From Crocinitomicaceae bacterium (GTDB taxonomy: Bacteria; Bacteroidota; Bacteroidia; Flavobacteriales_D; Crocinitomicaceae), in assembly GCA_024639405.1 (NCBI GenBank), contig JAHEIL010000045.1, positions 186,001-250,000 on the forward strand: a stretch of DNA of 64,000 bases, in the 5' to 3' direction. Both the position numbers and the translations under genes were made by a program. The notes beneath the pieces are model-generated. The model made no database searches, was not told the origin of the DNA, and was given only the letters and a program-made list of their open reading frames with translations. This document shows positions 7,598-49,519 of this stretch, piece after piece (the stretch's first letter is position 1; each line of letters starts with the position of its first letter).

Positions 7598-8171
7598 CAT
7601 TCAAGGCTTCAATTAATGCTTCAATTTGAGGGATTAACAAAAATTCTTCATCATTGATAAGTACAAAATTAGCTACTTCCTTTTTTGCTGCATCCGTCCA
7701 TTGTTTTTCCATTCGATCCACTACCTGTTCACGACTGCATTGTTCACGATCCATCACGCGTTTGATTTTCAATTCATCAGGAGCAGATACCAACACCACT
7801 TGATCAAATAGTTTGTAAGCGCCAGTTTCGATTAGAATTGCCGCTTCATTGAATACAAGTGTTGATGGATGTTGTTGAATAAATTCATCAAAAAGCATGC
7901 GGACTCTTGGGTGGATAATTGCATTCATTCTCAAACGAATTTGATCATCTGAAAACATTCTTAAAGCAACATACGTTCGATTAAGTTGATTGTTTTCGTA
8001 GGCATCTTCACCTAATAAGGCAATAAGTTCTTTTCTAATTTCAGGATGTGTATCCACGCATTTTTTAGCAGCATCGTCTGAATAAAACACAGGAAAACCC
8101 ATTGCCTCCAGTATTTTTCCAACTGTACTTTTTCCAGAACCAATTCCGCCAGTTAATCCAACTTTTAACAT
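7587..8171 (-). CDS. coaE: Dephospho-CoA kinase
   Basis: The product is 194 aa, normal for CoaE. It phosphorylates the 3'-hydroxyl of dephospho-CoA with ATP in the last step of coenzyme A synthesis, in the cytosol. The N-terminus is LTGGIGSGKST, a Walker A P-loop at residues ~8-16. It is followed by FSDDAAKK in the substrate-binding region and later HP..R and VMDREQCSREQV segments typical of the CoA/lid domain. It is monocistronic, divergent from the methyltransferase gene and convergent with the membrane-protein gene, whose end it overlaps by 11 bp. Confidence 0.95.
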   Translation of the reverse strand: MLKVGLTGGIGSGKSTVGKILEAMGFPVFYSDDAAKKCVDTHPEIRKELIALLGEDAYENNQLNRTYVALRMFSDDQIRLRMNAIIHPRVRMLFDEFIQQHPSTLVFNEAAILIETGAYKLFDQVVLVSAPDELKIKRVMDREQCSREQVVDRMEKQWTDAAKKEVANFVLINDEEFLLIPQIEALIEALNAIH

Positions 8172-8184
8172 GCCAATCTTTTTT

Positions 8185-8192
8185 CAAAGATA
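8185..8192 (-). promoter_or_regulatory. Candidate -7 box for coaE
   Basis: The minus strand reads TATCTTTG, a perfect TAnnTTTG box, 13 nt before the coaE ATG, implying a 5' leader of only about 9 nt. No TTG lies at the consensus -33 distance. Confidence 0.45.
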
Positions 8193-8212
8193 CAAATGAA
8201 AAATCAAAAGTG

Positions 8213-8220
8213 TATCTTTG
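8213..8220 (+). promoter_or_regulatory. Candidate -7 box abutting the methyltransferase start (leaderless arrangement)
   Basis: TATCTTTG followed by TAGC and then ATG: only 4 nt separate the -7 box from the start codon at 8225, so transcription would begin at or beside the A of ATG. The 16 bases TATCTTTGTAGCATGA recur exactly at the apt start. No -33 TTG at the usual spacing is visible. Confidence 0.5.
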
Positions 8221-8224
8221 TAGC

Positions 8225-8962
8225 ATGAGTAAAAAAGAATGGTTTGAAGAATGGTTTGATACAAGCTACTATCATACGCTTTATAAACATCGCAACGATG
8301 AAGAGGCGTCTCAATTTATAGAGCGAATTGTAGCTGAACTTCCATTAAAATCCGGTGCATGCGTTTTAGACTTAGCGTGTGGTAAAGGACGTCATTCTAT
8401 TACACTCAATAAATTAGGATTCAACGTGTTGGGCGTAGATTTAGCCGCAAACAGCATTGAAAAAGCACAAGTTTTTAAAAATGAAACCTTACAATTCGCA
8501 GTACATGACATGCGTGAAATCATTTCAAACCAAAAATTTGCTGCAATTTTTAATTTATTTACCAGCTTTGGCTATTTTGATTCCATTGATGACAATACAA
8601 AAGTAATACAAGCAATAAATGCCATGTTGGAGGATGAAGGTTTACTTATCATCGATTTCATGAATGCAACAAGAGTGATTAATCAGTTAGTACTGAAGGA
8701 ATCACAAATGATTGATGGAATTACTTTTGACATCTCTAGAAGCTACAACGGAACACATATCTTCAAGCGTATACAATTCAATGATCATGGAAAAGAATTT
8801 GATTTTACGGAACGAGTTCAAGCATTGAAAATTGCTGATTTCTCTCAGTTGTTGCTTAACAATGGCTTTGAAATTATGCGTACTTTTGGCGACTTTCAAT
8901 TGAATGATTTTCAAGAAAATGCTTCAGATCGCTTATTATTAATCGCTAAAAAAATTAAATGA
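8225..8962 (+). CDS. Class I SAM-dependent methyltransferase
   Basis: The product is 245 aa. I chose the ATG at 8225 (MSKKEWFEEWFDTSYYH) over an upstream ATG at 8102, because the extra 41 residues would lie inside the coaE coding region and the family starts near this WFDTxYYHxLY motif. Motif I is VLDLACGKGRHS, motif II ends at GVDLA, and the post-I region reads FAVHDMRE. These bind S-adenosylmethionine in a Rossmann fold of the methyltransferase-domain-25 type. The substrate cannot be told from sequence. The stop overlaps the ZIP transporter start as ATGA, so the two are translationally coupled. Confidence 0.88.
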   Translation: MSKKEWFEEWFDTSYYHTLYKHRNDEEASQFIERIVAELPLKSGACVLDLACGKGRHSITLNKLGFNVLGVDLAANSIEKAQVFKNETLQFAVHDMREIISNQKFAAIFNLFTSFGYFDSIDDNTKVIQAINAMLEDEGLLIIDFMNATRVINQLVLKESQMIDGITFDISRSYNGTHIFKRIQFNDHGKEFDFTERVQALKIADFSQLLLNNGFEIMRTFGDFQLNDFQENASDRLLLIAKKIK

Positions 8963-9687
8963 ACGCTACCCTTGTATTGATAAGTTTGATGTTGTCGGTC
9001 GTTTTAGGCGGATTTTTTGTAACGTATTTACACAAAACAAATAAAGCACAAATTATAAAGTTACTATTAGCTTTTAGTGGTGGTTTTCTTTTAGCGATTG
9101 CATTCACGCATTTTATTCCTGAATTATACCATGACAGTACTTCGTCGATTGGATTTTACATATTAATTGGATTTTTAATTCAATTATTAATGGAATTCTT
9201 TTCAGGTGGAATTGAACACGGTCATGTGCACGTTCACAAAGGACAAGCAATGCCTTGGGGCTTATTTATTTCATTATCTGTTCATTCTATCATTGAAGGG
9301 ATTCCTCTTGGAAATCAATTGATTGGACATGAAATAGCACACCATCACGAACAAGGAAATTCGTTATTATTAGGGATCTTATTCCATCAATTACCGGTTG
9401 CAATCGCTTTAATGACTTTGTTAATTAATACACGATTATCGTTGGTAAAAGCATGGATTGTCTTGTTACTATTCGGAATTATGACGCCACTTGGAGTTGT
9501 CATAGGTTTGTTAACGATTCCAGGTGCATTTGGCTTAGATTATCCAATTGTATTAGCCATAGTTGTTGGAATGTTTTTACATATTTCTACTACAATTATT
9601 TTTGAAACTTCAGAAAATCATAAATTTAATTTATTAAAACTAGCTTCCATAATGGTAGGATGTTCGTTGGCATTTTTGATGAACTAG
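8959..9687 (+). CDS. ZIP-family divalent metal transporter
   Basis: The product is 242 aa with about eight membrane segments. Hallmarks are HSIIEGIPLG in TM4 (His109, Glu113) and FHQLP in TM5 (His143), which form the metal site in ZIP proteins, plus a His-rich cytoplasmic loop (HGHVHVH at ~87-93) and a second His cluster at ~124-130. The family moves Zn2+, Fe2+ or Mn2+ across the inner membrane towards the cytosol. The start overlaps the methyltransferase stop (ATGA), so it depends on that promoter. The metal is not determined by sequence. Confidence 0.88.
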   Translation: MNATLVLISLMLSVVLGGFFVTYLHKTNKAQIIKLLLAFSGGFLLAIAFTHFIPELYHDSTSSIGFYILIGFLIQLLMEFFSGGIEHGHVHVHKGQAMPWGLFISLSVHSIIEGIPLGNQLIGHEIAHHHEQGNSLLLGILFHQLPVAIALMTLLINTRLSLVKAWIVLLLFGIMTPLGVVIGLLTIPGAFGLDYPIVLAIVVGMFLHISTTIIFETSENHKFNLLKLASIMVGCSLAFLMN

Positions 9688-27063: not shown

Positions 27064-30000
27064 TTATTGTGTTACAAACCAATTTAACTGATAAATTGCT
27101 TCGTTAACGGATTTTATAGTTTCTAAATAATTTAGTTCTAAATCAACACATTGTTGTTTTGTTTGTAAAAACTCTATCATTGATATTTCACCAGTAGTAA
27201 ACATAATTATAGCTTGCTCTTTCATTAATTTTATTTGGCTTAACAAATGATCTTCATACATTTGATAGTCGTTTAAAGCTGTTTGATAAGTTGCTACCAA
27301 CTGCTTGTATTGATTTGTTAAACTGTTCAAGATGTAATCTTTTTCATTGTTTCGTTGAGCAATATCCAACTGAATAAGTTGCATTTTTTTTCTAGTTGAA
27401 CCATAAAAAAGCGGAATTTGCATTCCAACTTGAACAGATTGAAAACGATCCGATTGAGTGTAACTTTTATCAATACCATTGACACTATGAGAACCAACAA
27501 GTGTTTGATTCACATATCCAATAGTAAAATCTGGCATCGCTCTCGACAATACAACTTTTGAGTCTTTTTCTAACACTTTAATTTGTTGTCCAATTTGAGT
27601 CACCATCAAATGATTGTTGTAATTTTCTGTAACAGGATCCGTAAAACGAAGTATTAGTTTGAGAGAAGTTGCGCTTGGAATTTCTACCATATTTTCTCCA
27701 ATTAGAAAAGCCAAATTTGCGTACTCACCAATCAATTGATTTTCTACAGCATGAACTAATTTTTGATTTTCTAATCGTTTCGTAGTTATTAATACCGCAT
27801 CTAATTTGGTAATGTCTTTTACAGCATAGCGAATATTAGATTTTTGATCGATTAAGGAGTAAATAGAATCATTTTCAACTAAATATCGTAATTTTTCTTT
27901 CAAGAAAACACATGCATTATAACTTTTTTCTATCCTTAATTTGAGGTCTTTCCATTTCAATTCATACGACAATTTTGCTAAATCAGCCCTAGCTTGTCCT
28001 GCTTGACGTTCGCGAGAAAAAACAGTTGGAAAAGGCATCGTCTGAGCAATTGTAATGCTATTGTCTTTGTTGTAAAATGAATTGAATTGTCCCAACATAA
28101 AGATAAATGCAGTTTTTGGGATCACTACAGCCGCTTTACCTGCAAGGATTTCTTTTTCTATTTGTTGTGAAGCTATTTTCATTTCCAAATTCGTCGTTTT
28201 TGCTTTTTCTAAACACTGATCAAGTGAATAAGACTTCGTTTGTGCAAAAAACATAAACGGTAAAAAGAGCAATATTACTGTTGTAAGCCGTTTCTTTTTT
28301 AATTGTAGTTTTTTATGTTTTCGTTCTGAATACAAGTAAAATATTGGCAAGACAAATAAGGTCAATAAGGTTGCTGTAATTAGTCCTCCAATAACAACCG
28401 TTGCTAAAGGTTTTTGAACTTCTGCGCCGCTCCCATGTGACAATGCCATCGGTAAAAAACCTAAAGAAGCAACTAATGCTGTTAATAAAACAGGCCGTAA
28501 ACGAACACGTGTTCCAAGTAAAACAATTCTCAAACTATTAGAATAACCAGACTTTTTCAGTGAATTAAATTCTGAAATCAAAACGATGCCATTTAATACT
28601 GCTACACCAAATAAGGCAATAAACCCAACACCTGCTGAAATAGAAAATGGCATATCTCTTAACCATAAAGCAAGAATTCCTCCCAATGCGGCTAATGGTA
28701 TTGCTGAGAAGATCAATAGAGCTTGAATCATCGATTGAAAAGTAAGGTACAACAAAAAGAAGATCAACAACAATGAAACAGGAACAGCAATTGACAAACG
28801 TGCATTCGCAGCTTCTAAATTCTTAAAAGTCCCACCATATGTTGTATAATATCCTGGTTCAAAATCAACTTTTGAAGCTATATTTTTTTCTAATTCATTC
28901 ACAATACTTGCAACATCTCTTCCACGCACATTAAACCCAACGATAATTCTCCTTTTGGCATCATCGCGTTGAATTTGATTGGGTCCTTTTTTCAATTCAA
29001 CTACTGCTAATTCCTCTAATGGAACTTGCAATCCAGCTGGAGAAGAAATGGAGATCGATTTCAAATCATCCAAAGAAGCTCTGTTGGATGCATCTAATTT
29101 TACAACTAAATCAAAACGTTTTTCACCTTCAAAAATTAGTCCTGCTGTTTGACCAGCAAAACTTGTGTTAATTGCTTGATTAATCGCGTCAATAGAAATA
29201 TTATACTTTGAAAGTGCAAGGCGATTAAAAGAAACTATTAATTGTGGCAAACCGGACATTTCCTCCACATAAACATCTTGAACACCACCAATTTTCGAAG
29301 CAATAGTTCCTATTTTTCGGGCATATTTACCCAACAAATCTAAATCTTCTCCATAAACTTTAACCACAACATCTTGTTTTGCGCCTGTCATCAATTCATT
29401 GAAACGCATTTGAATAGGCTGTAAAAATCCAAAACTTACACCTGGTATAGAATTTTCTAAAGTAGCTTGCATTTTTTCCGCTAATTCATCCTTTGATTCT
29501 GCTGAAACCCAATCCTTTTTATCTTTTAAAATGATCATTAAGTCACACGCCTCCATAGGCATTGGATCTGTTGGGATTTCAGCTGTACCAATTTTTCCAA
29601 CCACTTGCTTAACTTCTGGAAAATTAGCGAGCAAAACAGATGATATTTTAGAAGTGGTCTCAACAGTTTTTGTTAAACTCGTCCCCATAACTAAGCGTGT
29701 TTCAACAGCGAAATCACCTTCATCTAAAGACGGAATAAATTCGGCTCCTAAACGATTAAACAATAAAATACAACTTACAAAAAGAACGAATAAACCTACC
29801 AATACTTTTCGTTGATTACGTAAAAAACTATTCAACGAAGGGATGTAAACTTTTTTGACAGCAGCAACTATAGTATCACTCCACGTTTTTCGAACACTTA
29901 TTTTTTTGGATAAAAACAATGCTGAAATCATTGGAACATAGGTTAATGATAAAATCAATGCGCCAATGATTGCAAACATAACCGTTTGTGCCATCGGACG

Positions 30001-31419
30001 AAACATTTTACCTTCTATACCAACTAATGCCAACAAGGGTAAATACACCACTAATATGATTATTTGTCCAAATACGGCACTTTTACTAAATTTAGATGCA
30101 GAATTAAAAACTTGTAAATCCATTTCATGTTGATTCAAGTTTCGTGACCCTTGCAGATACAAAATGTGTAATGTTGATTCAACAATAATAACTGCACCAT
30201 CGATAATTAAACCAAAATCAAGCGCACCTAAACTCATTAAATTTCCGGAAACTCCAAAAACATTCATTAATGAAATGGCAAATAACATTGCTAAAGGAAT
30301 CACAGACGCAACAATTAAACCCGCTCTAAAATTCCCTAATAATAAAACCAACACAAAGATTACAATTAACGCACCTTCAATCAAATTTGTAGATACCGTA
30401 GAAATTGCTTTGTCAACTAATTTTGTTCGATCTAAATAAACTTCGATATCAACACCATTCGGTAAGGTTTTACGAATTTGATTCATTCGTTCCTTTACAT
30501 TTTTAATAACATTTGAAGAATTAGCTCCTTTTAACATTAAAACTATTCCGCCTACTGCTTCTCCTGTATTATTGTAGGTAAGTGCACCGTATCGAACTGC
30601 TTTTCCTATGTTAACTTTTCCAATGTCTTTCACTAAAACTGGAGTTCCTAATTGGTTCTGTGCAACAACGGTTTGTTCGATATCAGTTATAGATTTCATC
30701 AAACCATCTGTTCTAATGTAAGTTGTCGTTGAATTTTTTTCAATGTAAGCGCCTCCTGTATTTTGATTGTTTTGTTCAACGGCTTTAAAAACATCTGCAA
30801 TCGATAATCCAAATCCTTTCAATTGCGTTAGGTTTACAGCAATTTCATATTGTTTTAAATTACCTCCAAAACCACTAACATCAGCAACACCTTCTACGCC
30901 TAGTAATTGCCTGCGAATTACCCAATCTTGAATCGAGCGTAATTCAGTTGCATCAATTTTAGATTCGAAACCTTTTTTTGCCTTAACAATGTATTGGTAG
31001 ATTTCACCTAAACCAGTACTCAAAGCAACCAATGAAGGATCACCAAATCCAGGTGGAATTTTACTTTTTGCTTCTGACAAACGTTCAGAAACTTGTTGAC
31101 GTGCCCAATAAATATCCGTTTGTTCCTTGAAAACAATTGTAACTACACTTAACCCAAAACGACTAAAAGAACGAATCTCTTCAATTTCAGGAATGGTTGC
31201 CATAGTTTGTTCTACAGGAAACGTAACAAAACGTTCTATGTCTTCAGCTCCTGAAGATGGAGAAGAGGTAACAATTTGTACTTGATTATTTGTAATATCT
31301 GGAACAGCATCTATGGGTAAATTTGTGAGCGAAATTATGCCCCAAATAATGAGTCCAAGTGTCATAATCCCAACAATCAATTTGTTGGAAATTGACCAAT
31401 TAATTATTTTATGTAACAT
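27064..31419 (-). CDS. CzcA/CusA-type heavy-metal RND pump fused to a TolC-like outer-membrane factor
   Basis: The product is 1451 aa. Residues ~1-1030 are a complete HME-RND pump: first membrane helix at ~12-30, periplasmic porter loops, and the TM4 motif DFGLIIDGAVIIVES, whose DFG-x3-DGA form is the divalent-cation class (Zn/Co/Cd/Ni) rather than the Cu/Ag class. Residues ~1057-1451 are a TolC-family factor starting TKSYSLDQCLEKA. Between them, RLTTVILLFLPFMFFAQ looks like a signal peptide, so the fusion may be cleaved to release the channel. RND-OMF fusions of this kind occur in Bacteroidota. The adaptor follows after 7 bp. Confidence 0.93.
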   Translation of the reverse strand: MLHKIINWSISNKLIVGIMTLGLIIWGIISLTNLPIDAVPDITNNQVQIVTSSPSSGAEDIERFVTFPVEQTMATIPEIEEIRSFSRFGLSVVTIVFKEQTDIYWARQQVSERLSEAKSKIPPGFGDPSLVALSTGLGEIYQYIVKAKKGFESKIDATELRSIQDWVIRRQLLGVEGVADVSGFGGNLKQYEIAVNLTQLKGFGLSIADVFKAVEQNNQNTGGAYIEKNSTTTYIRTDGLMKSITDIEQTVVAQNQLGTPVLVKDIGKVNIGKAVRYGALTYNNTGEAVGGIVLMLKGANSSNVIKNVKERMNQIRKTLPNGVDIEVYLDRTKLVDKAISTVSTNLIEGALIVIFVLVLLLGNFRAGLIVASVIPLAMLFAISLMNVFGVSGNLMSLGALDFGLIIDGAVIIVESTLHILYLQGSRNLNQHEMDLQVFNSASKFSKSAVFGQIIILVVYLPLLALVGIEGKMFRPMAQTVMFAIIGALILSLTYVPMISALFLSKKISVRKTWSDTIVAAVKKVYIPSLNSFLRNQRKVLVGLFVLFVSCILLFNRLGAEFIPSLDEGDFAVETRLVMGTSLTKTVETTSKISSVLLANFPEVKQVVGKIGTAEIPTDPMPMEACDLMIILKDKKDWVSAESKDELAEKMQATLENSIPGVSFGFLQPIQMRFNELMTGAKQDVVVKVYGEDLDLLGKYARKIGTIASKIGGVQDVYVEEMSGLPQLIVSFNRLALSKYNISIDAINQAINTSFAGQTAGLIFEGEKRFDLVVKLDASNRASLDDLKSISISSPAGLQVPLEELAVVELKKGPNQIQRDDAKRRIIVGFNVRGRDVASIVNELEKNIASKVDFEPGYYTTYGGTFKNLEAANARLSIAVPVSLLLIFFLLYLTFQSMIQALLIFSAIPLAALGGILALWLRDMPFSISAGVGFIALFGVAVLNGIVLISEFNSLKKSGYSNSLRIVLLGTRVRLRPVLLTALVASLGFLPMALSHGSGAEVQKPLATVVIGGLITATLLTLFVLPIFYLYSERKHKKLQLKKKRLTTVILLFLPFMFFAQTKSYSLDQCLEKAKTTNLEMKIASQQIEKEILAGKAAVVIPKTAFIFMLGQFNSFYNKDNSITIAQTMPFPTVFSRERQAGQARADLAKLSYELKWKDLKLRIEKSYNACVFLKEKLRYLVENDSIYSLIDQKSNIRYAVKDITKLDAVLITTKRLENQKLVHAVENQLIGEYANLAFLIGENMVEIPSATSLKLILRFTDPVTENYNNHLMVTQIGQQIKVLEKDSKVVLSRAMPDFTIGYVNQTLVGSHSVNGIDKSYTQSDRFQSVQVGMQIPLFYGSTRKKMQLIQLDIAQRNNEKDYILNSLTNQYKQLVATYQTALNDYQMYEDHLLSQIKLMKEQAIIMFTTGEISMIEFLQTKQQCVDLELNYLETIKSVNEAIYQLNWFVTQ

Positions 31420-31474: not shown

Positions 31475-31858
31475 TTAACAAGACTTTGGAGGATTCCAAA
31501 TTGCAAACAATTTTTGCTGATAAAAGGACTTTTTGTAATTAAAATGTTCTTTTTTTATGATGGGAATAATTATTAAATCTTCAATCTTTAAAATTGAACA
31601 ATCTTGATGAATTAAATGAAAAGAATTTGCTGTTAGTGTTTTAAACGGTAAATTCTTTTCATCTTTATTAGGTTTATGGTCTTTTGAATAATGCTCTTTT
31701 AAAAAAGTAAAAAATGAAGAATAGGAAGTTTCACTTTTTTGATGATTGTTGTAATGAGCAATCACTTCAGTAAATTTAAAATATTCACCACCTCGCATAT
31801 TTGGTGCGAGTGATACAATCGTAAACAAAAAAGTAAATAGAACAATTACAAGTCTCAT
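31475..31858 (-). CDS. Small exported His/Lys-rich protein at the head of the metal operon
   Basis: The product is 127 aa and I do not recognise the family. An N-terminal hydrophobic segment (residues 1-19) suggests export or membrane anchoring. The body is rich in His and Lys (AHYNNHQ, KEHYSKDHKPNKDEK, FHLIHQ, KKEHFNYKK), compatible with metal binding, and ends PPKSC. It is 55 bp upstream of the pump gene and is the first gene after the promoter-like box, so a periplasmic metal-binding or sensing accessory is a reasonable guess only. Confidence 0.6.
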   Translation of the reverse strand: MRLVIVLFTFLFTIVSLAPNMRGGEYFKFTEVIAHYNNHQKSETSYSSFFTFLKEHYSKDHKPNKDEKNLPFKTLTANSFHLIHQDCSILKIEDLIIIPIIKKEHFNYKKSFYQQKLFAIWNPPKSC

Positions 31859-31862
31859 AGTA

Positions 31863-31870
31863 CAAAGCTA
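31863..31870 (-). promoter_or_regulatory. Candidate -7 box abutting the first gene of the metal operon
   Basis: The minus strand reads TAGCTTTG, then four bases, then ATG: the same 4-nt spacing as at 8213 and 48650. TTG triplets upstream lie 10 and 25 nt away, outside the usual 17-23. Confidence 0.45.
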
Positions 31871-48646: not shown

Positions 48647-49519
48647 CTACAAAGATAAGTACGGTTTTAATTTATCAAACAATTCTTCATCAATTAATAC
48701 ACATTCTTTTATTTCTTCTATTGACCTGAATGCGCCACCTTTTTGATTTCTCATTTTCACTAAAGCATTTGCTTGGTTCCAATTAAAATATGGATGTGCT
48801 TTAAAATCAGCAGCTAATGCGCTATTGATGTCTATTTTCCGAATATCTTGTAAGGTAATAAAAATCAATCCTTCAATTGCATTGTACTTTTCGAGGTCAA
48901 ATTTCCACACTTCTAATAATTGTGTTTTTTTGTAAAATCCACCAATTTTATCTCGGTACTTCAAAATATTTTTTGCAAAAAAAGTACCAATTCCTGGTAA
49001 AATTTCTAGTTCTTCTTGAGTGGCTGTGTTAATAAACAGCAGGTGTTTTTTTTCTGTTTCTAATTTTCGTTCTACTGTTTGAATTTGTTTGGTGTTTTTT
49101 TCAGGATAAAAGGTAGAATCTTTTATTAGGTTGAATAATTCTGAAGGAATAACAACTATTTTTTGTAATTGATCATTGGAATAAATACCTCTTTTAATAA
49201 ATTTTAAAATTACAGCAACTTGTTTTTTAGACAATCCTAATTTTAACCAATCTTTTTCCTTGTATGAATTGGGATCAAATTTTTGAGGCGGAAGATAAAA
49301 CTTATTTTTTTTTGAATATCTATTTTTCTTATAAAAGAACTTTTTCTTGTAGTGATTTTTAGTAAGCAGTTGAATTTTAGACGCTTCAATAGTGATTATT
49401 TCTTTTGGAGAAAAGAAGAGTATAATTCGCGGTACAAATAAAATCATCAACGAAATGAAGATGAAAATTAAAACGCCTCGTTTATTTCTAGCCGAGACAA
49501 AGAATGTTGGTGGTTTCAC
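48647..49519 (-). CDS. Helix-hairpin-helix membrane protein (ComEA-like HhH); GTG start
   Basis: The product is 290 aa. One membrane segment (~14-35) is followed by a very basic region and then repeated helix-hairpin-helix units: LKLGLSKKQVAVILKFIKRG, INTATQEELEILPGIGTFFAKNILKYRDKIGGF and INSALAADFKAHPYFNWNQANALVKMRNQKG. The family binds DNA non-specifically and ComEA relatives act in DNA uptake; a role here is inferred. The GTG start overlaps the permease stop as GTGA. Confidence 0.8.
   Translation of the reverse strand: MKPPTFFVSARNKRGVLIFIFISLMILFVPRIILFFSPKEIITIEASKIQLLTKNHYKKKFFYKKNRYSKKNKFYLPPQKFDPNSYKEKDWLKLGLSKKQVAVILKFIKRGIYSNDQLQKIVVIPSELFNLIKDSTFYPEKNTKQIQTVERKLETEKKHLLFINTATQEELEILPGIGTFFAKNILKYRDKIGGFYKKTQLLEVWKFDLEKYNAIEGLIFITLQDIRKIDINSALAADFKAHPYFNWNQANALVKMRNQKGGAFRSIEEIKECVLIDEELFDKLKPYLSL
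48650..48678 (-). promoter_or_regulatory. Candidate internal promoter of apt, leaderless arrangement
   Basis: The minus strand has TTG (48678-48676), an 18-nt spacer and TATCTTTG (48657-48650), then TAGC and the apt ATG. The box is also the last three sense codons of the upstream gene, so coding constraint could mimic it; the consensus -33 spacing supports a real promoter. Confidence 0.5.

Follow-up and report, generated by a model that had tools for sequence, protein, structure and literature searches.

We find that a promoter box lying exactly four nucleotides before an ATG (spacing N4) marks a minority of genes in this Crocinitomicaceae genome and in relatives of its class. The best explanation, to which we give a probability of roughly 0.8, is that a -7 box at this spacing makes RNA polymerase start on the ATG and yields leaderless mRNAs, as a minority class of messages. 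The box itself, its exact spacing from ATG, a thin zone at spacings N6–13, aligned start codons and conservation in relatives are all observed. On this reading the sites would be -7 elements (TAnnTTTG) in Bacteroidia-type promoters served by the housekeeping sigma factor (sigma-ABfr). RNA polymerase would start on the A of the start codon, so that the mRNA would begin with 5′-AUG and lack a leader, and the ribosome would bind this 5′-terminal AUG directly, with neither Shine-Dalgarno pairing nor a leader such as tunes the group's other messages. The transcription start is inferred from the 4–5 nt published as the distance that separates it from the box; how the ribosome would bind is likewise inferred.

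That distance comes from Flavobacterium. In probable promoters of F. johnsoniae the box lies at -12 to -5 and is separated from the transcription start by 4 or 5 nt (PMC6847099), and the box of F. psychrophilum likewise occupies -12 to -5 (PMC9723704). By this published geometry, N4 puts +1 on the A of ATG, that is, at 8225, 48645 and 31858. These are the positions at which the initial annotation had predicted 5′ ends, and its prediction agrees with the published distance.

Three sites in a 64,000-nucleotide window

The window (the whole stretch of DNA analyzed, 64,000 nucleotides long) belongs to an assembly of 2.63 Mb in 52 contigs and holds three sites of this kind (Table 1). The 16-mer TATCTTTGTAGCATGA lies at 8213-8228 (+) and 48657-48642 (-), and TAGCTTTGTACTATG lies at 31870-31856 (-) before the metal operon, in each case where the initial annotation had placed it. 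Within the 844 kb of the genome examined, the exact 16-mer occurs at its two named places only. No special cause is needed for 16 bases common to two sites, because the shared spacer, TAGC, fits the spacer preferences of the class: each of its bases is the commonest or second commonest at its spacer position among 17 class cases. A refined form of the box, TAHHTTTG, is satisfied strictly at 8213-8220 and 48650-48657. The third box, TAGCTTTG at 31863-31870, satisfies TAnn, not TAHH, and carries a G at the third box position, where F. johnsoniae promoters almost never have one (PMC6847099).

Table 1. Promoter boxes and genes at the three sites of the window
Feature	Position	Strand	Remarks
-7 promoter box TATCTTTG, methyltransferase gene	8213..8220	+	N4 before aligned ATG in 22/101 orthologues
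Spacer TAGC, 4 nt	8221..8224	+	Transcription start placed at 8225 (A of ATG) from F. johnsoniae geometry
SAM-dependent methyltransferase, 245 aa, predicted leaderless	8225..8962	+	Pfam PF13489
ZIP-family transporter gene	8959-9687		PF02535; overlaps methyltransferase 3′ end
Divergent -7 box TATCTTTG for coaE	8185..8192	-	N13 before coaE ATG at 8171; CoaE PF01121
-7-like box TATCTTTG upstream of apt	48650..48657	-	Overlaps last codons of the HHH gene (YLSL, then TAG)
Phosphoribosyltransferase gene ("apt" in the initial annotation), 176 aa	48115..48645	-	PF00156; possibly with its own leaderless promoter, or read from the upstream gene
Helix-hairpin-helix (HHH) protein gene	48647..49519	-	PF12836; 3′ end contains apt box
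-7 box TAGCTTTG, metal-efflux operon (name from the initial annotation)	31863..31870	-	ATG at N4/N5 in 7/15 aligned orthologue loci
127-aa small protein, predicted leaderless, first gene of the operon	31475..31858	-	Without Pfam match
RND efflux pump fused to outer-membrane efflux domain, next downstream	27064..31419	-	PF00873 + PF02321; putative metal role

Whether apt is leaderless is uncertain, because its box falls within the final codons of the HHH gene upstream, and we consider the chances about even. The box coincides with the C-terminal codons K-P-Y-L-S-L-stop of that gene, and apt starts 1 nt past the stop. For this site only, the box could be a by-product of the upstream YLSL-stop codons, with apt translated by coupling from the message of the upstream gene, a reading that we hold to have somewhat less than an even chance. 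It fits the stop codon lying 1 nt before the apt ATG, and many of 30 apt orthologue loci have an upstream gene that ends in Y-L/V/I-S/T/Y-L. It also fits four loci (L075-L077 and L083) in which the two genes overlap as ATGA after a Leu codon and there is no N4 or N5 box. Against it, all seven loci with 1 nt between stop and apt have a full box and TTG as the last Leu codon, where TTG makes up 28% of Leu codons in the window's own genome. This hints at selection for the box, in a count that is not independent, the species being related. Across the 30 loci the box stands at N4 in 8, N5 in 1, N8 in 2 and N23 in 3. The start codons of apt and of the 127-aa protein are backed by pairwise orthologue alignment only.

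Some orthologues of the methyltransferase keep the box at N4 while their flanks have drifted. Of the 60 family genomes we used the best 30, and of the 80 best named loci 79. An ATG stands close to the aligned start in 107 of these 109 loci, and dropping 6 same-genome repeats left 101. Among these 101 distinct orthologues the box lies at N3 in 3, N4 in 22, N5 in 4, N6–8 in 6, N9–15 in none and N16–30 in 44; in the other 18, the 60 nt before the start contain no strict box. Because many of the species are related, these counts are not independent events. Eighteen dereplicated N4 upstream regions have approximately random flanks apart from mostly A/T at -18 to -16, the invariance of the box itself following from its use to select the regions. 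F. johnsoniae promoters are likewise AT-rich at -18 to -16 (PMC6847099). Judged by identity in the methyltransferase, the genome's nearest named relative in the scan is a Flavobacteriales metagenome bin (90%), followed by two Crocinitomicaceae bins (65% and 64%).

The 53 nt that separate the divergent genes coaE and methyltransferase (window 8160-8228) contain two outward -7 boxes, which form a 9-bp inverted repeat with perfect arms at 8185-8193 and 8212-8220. For the methyltransferase only, perfect arms between these genes could mean a regulator's operator in place of two divergent promoters. Such a repeat is, however, inevitable from two divergent copies of one -7 box, and distant orthologues keep the methyltransferase-side box at N4 where the upstream sequence is otherwise different, and we think an operator very unlikely. 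Among other loci, one (L151) has N4/N5 boxes on both divergent genes, and in L145 and L148 a gene whose N-terminus makes it coaE-like has its box at N5.

Spacing of box and start codon across genomes

Measured gene by gene, the spacing falls into two separate modes. In the first, +1 would coincide with the start codon; in the second, the leader would be about 10 nt long or more. The own-genome sample comprised 844 kb (40 stretches plus the window) with 676 ORF-called genes, and for each gene we determined how far TAHHTTTG lies from any in-frame ATG within the first 130 nt; a 90-nt limit would leave out the window's methyltransferase. N4 was found 17 times against an expectation, derived from internal ATGs, of 0.44 per spacing. 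Other spacings gave 1 case at N3, 7 at N5, none at N6, 16 at N7–13, 57 at N14–20 and 36 at N21–30. Genes with a strict box at N4 or N5 are a minority (24/676), and most near-start boxes are leadered. Pooling eight further class genomes (722 genes) gave 14 N4 cases against 0.28 expected, the highest single spacing, and 11 cases at N6–13 together. Per genome these N4 cases number 0, 0, 4, 0, 3, 0, 6 and 1, four genomes having none. A box at a fixed distance from the start codon beyond chance, as leaderless genes should have, is present both in the window's own genome and in the pool.

Within the window, TANNTTTG-N4-ATG is no more frequent than chance, with 3 occurrences against a shuffle mean of 1.98 (at least 3 in 36 of 100 shuffles); in genome-wide and gene-anchored counts it is more frequent. 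The whole genome has 115 such sites, compared with 62 for the reversed pattern and 72 at N10, and therefore some 43–53 in excess. N4 exceeds the reversed pattern in 60/60 family genomes searched, as judged by reading the counts. It exceeds N10 in 60 of 61 class genomes, own genome included and all drawn from a phylum sample of 247 genomes, with 6428 against 3784 sites when summed. One family of the class (f11) has no N4 excess over N10 (131 vs. 129). Families outside the class were left unsummed, with one exception (f24), and three of them (f16, f17 and f23) lack a consistent excess in tables scanned by eye. The exception, with nine genomes (G086, G117, G144, G159, G163, G171, G194, G202 and G290; GC about 0.54–0.58 in the stretches examined), has 360 N4 against 79 N10 sites, a ratio above that of every class family. 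At gene level this family has 3 N4 cases in 290 genes, too few for judgement. The FMO protein (PF02327), sought as a clue to what the family is, had no match there and none in the control genomes either, so that the result is uninformative.

Chance alone would let TANNTTTG-N4-ATG arise a few times in AT-rich DNA. The window's count fits this, and by the controls of 62–72 background may make up over half of the 115 genome sites. The gene-anchored peak and the orthologue footprints speak against it, and for the class as a whole that peak already contradicts it; we regard chance as a most improbable account.

In 14/17 N4 cases ATG is preceded by C or T, a usual preference at -1 and consistent with +1 on the A of ATG. 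As for the -33 element of such promoters (TTG/TTTG some 19 nt upstream of the box), TTG at spacing 19 was found in 3/24 leaderless and 8% of 99 leadered cases in the own genome (0–8% at other spacings), and in 0/17 leaderless and 10% of 80 leadered cases in the eight other genomes. The -33 element is also weak in F. johnsoniae (PMC6847099). A search for sigma region 3 found one protein in the genome, of 289 aa. The best RpoD model aligns to it only from model position 393 of 631, which would fit a primary sigma factor without region 1.1. Shine-Dalgarno-like words precede the ATG in 3/615 genes, compared with 5/615 in the control stretch. The exact 16S tail pattern has no match in the genome, where the rRNA is possibly missing or its tail different.

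In one set, GTG follows the box at exactly N4 in seven cases, at loci L131 (17092), L140 (13466), L143 (16966), L149 (12316), L155 (1353), L156 (2275) and L163 (2029); no other spacing between 0 and 30 has more than two. Two other sets have no GTG at N4. These cases are suggestive only, as possible leaderless GUG starts.

Start codons and conservation of candidate genes

By homology, the ATG is the true start of both the methyltransferase, whose 12-row protein alignment starts at M1 with W6 invariant, and mnmA. The boxes might instead serve leadered messages with true starts downstream and a miscalled first ATG, as ORF calling alone would, we reason, leave starts unproven; this is scarcely credible, since the next in-frame ATG of the methyltransferase is 285 nt downstream, with conserved residues from W6 on, and family profiles match mnmA and an asparagine synthase-type gene from residues 2-3.

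Our candidate list for the own genome has 28 entries at N3–N5, obtained with the looser TANNTTTG box and including the three window sites. Nine of them were compared with profiles and so named: mnmA, ruvX, the asparagine synthase-type amidotransferase, pyrE, mutS2, lpxK, purT, an ABC-F ATPase and a type III pantothenate kinase. The amidotransferase has its box at N5, starts MCG and is aligned to TIGR01536 from residue 2. Its start codon is fixed because Met is followed by Cys2, which we take to be catalytic and bound to become the mature N-terminus.

An independent gene, mnmA, shows conservation within the family. Among family orthologues from the best 30 of 57 genomes with a match, the box is at N4 in 21 and at N7 in 2, and the N4 cases span 9 of the 12 genera of this set. 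Among further class members N4 was found in 3/28, so that the N4 state is stable in the family but changes over time outside it. The class has two forms of mnmA, with about 60–70% and mostly about 40–47% identity to the own-genome copy, and the mnmA of one genome (G355, locus L326) has a TAG within the frame.

For the 127-aa protein of the metal operon, 15 of 23 orthologue loci could be aligned. In seven of the 15, among them all 4 of the genus, ATG stands at N4/N5; another three loci have, by eye, GTG or TTG at N4/N5. A relative of the pump gene adjoins the gene in 22/23 orthologue loci.

In Flavobacterium (L160-L203) a gene of 470-472 aa starting MGRKNTDKVVFHQI or similar, presumably akin to TrmA/RlmD-type RNA methyltransferases, has its box at N4 in 26/34 loci. 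Since this one gene and its orthologues account for 26 of the 27 N4 cases in these loci, we did not count the loci as separate support for the peak.

Taken with the Flavobacterium geometry, the spacing makes it very probable that the methyltransferase and metal-operon genes are leaderless and transcribed from the start codon, as judged by sequence comparison. The initial annotation had called all three genes leaderless. This stands for these two, on the spacing peak, the footprints and the aligned starts, and is uncertain for apt, with its box in HHH codons. Several findings weigh against the leaderless reading: the window's three hits, by themselves no more than chance would give, the upstream codons that can account for the apt box, the disfavored G in the metal-operon box, the weak -33 TTG, the absence of N4 from half of the eight other class genomes, and distant mnmA orthologues that mostly lack a box at N4.

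More tentatively, and with slightly more doubt than belief, we propose that selection in Bacteroidia may maintain a set of leaderless housekeeping genes whose membership changes slowly. In these the 5′ end would be kept on the start codon, leaders of 2–9 nt avoided and some starts be GUG, with translation separate from leader-tuned initiation. Proposed members are mnmA, the methyltransferase by coaE, the gene that heads the pump operon and the Flavobacterium 470-aa gene.

Comparison with known leaderless systems

Leaderless messages are an already known minority class in the phylum and are not the explanation of its missing Shine-Dalgarno pairing. In F. psychrophilum 5.5% are leaderless, among the mRNAs of 890 CDSs (PMC9723704), and in F. 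johnsoniae leaders of at most 10 nt occur in 13% of predicted transcripts (PMC6847099). The published map of Bacteroides thetaiotaomicron has 5′ UTRs of less than 10 nt in about 3.7%. The authors of the F. johnsoniae study hold that the missing Shine-Dalgarno sequences are not explicable by leaderless translation (PMC6847099), and a later paper puts the lack of Shine-Dalgarno recognition down to bS21, bS18 and bS6, which sequester the 16S tail (PMC9976891). The suggestion in the initial annotation that leaderless mRNAs suit ribosomes working without Shine-Dalgarno pairing is only weakly right: in published maps leaderless or short-leader messages are a minority, and most boxes near starts here are leadered too.

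Earlier genome surveys touched on the same signal. A 2011 survey of TA-like signals reported leaderless genes in 1 of 37 Bacteroidetes/Chlorobi genomes, with the warning that only Pribnow box-like promoters had been sought (PMC3160421). A 2017 study suggested that AT-rich signals ahead of the start codon in Bacteroidetes might, on one reading, point to leaderless mRNA (PMC5397173). The titles and abstracts searched state no rule for the spacing of box and ATG in Bacteroidia, in a search that did not extend to supplements or to most subscription journals. The examined text of PMC9723704 and PMC6847099 does not state a two-mode spacing (N4 and N14+) or orthologue conservation, and the main text of PMC12340547, on Deinococcus-Thermus, has no word beginning "bacteroid".

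TAHHTTTG-N4-ATG is an exact rule by which to seek leaderless genes where a Pribnow-type survey found almost none, and it helps to call start codons in the phylum. The thin N6–13 zone leads to a testable statement, that non-Shine-Dalgarno ribosomes avoid leaders of a few nucleotides. The mnmA, methyltransferase and asparagine synthase-type genes are named test cases for leaderless initiation in cultured flavobacteria.

As in F. psychrophilum and F. johnsoniae (PMC9723704, PMC6847099), the same -7 box accompanies a leaderless minority; unlike those systems, which were described from RNA data, ours is described from spacing and conservation. As in the 2011 survey (PMC3160421), a promoter-like signal near the start codon marks leaderless genes. 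In mechanism, the nearest counterpart is the -10 motif that adjoins ORFs in Deinococcus-Thermus, an element that drives leaderless mRNA and needs a set spacing (PMC12340547), and by our comparison the TAnnTT of the -7 box would fall in register with its TANNNT. That system differs in motif, in phylum and in extent, serving about 30% of ORFs compared with 24/676 genes here. To the class of leaderless messages already known in the phylum, the present analysis adds a sharper spacing rule and conservation at the level of the family.
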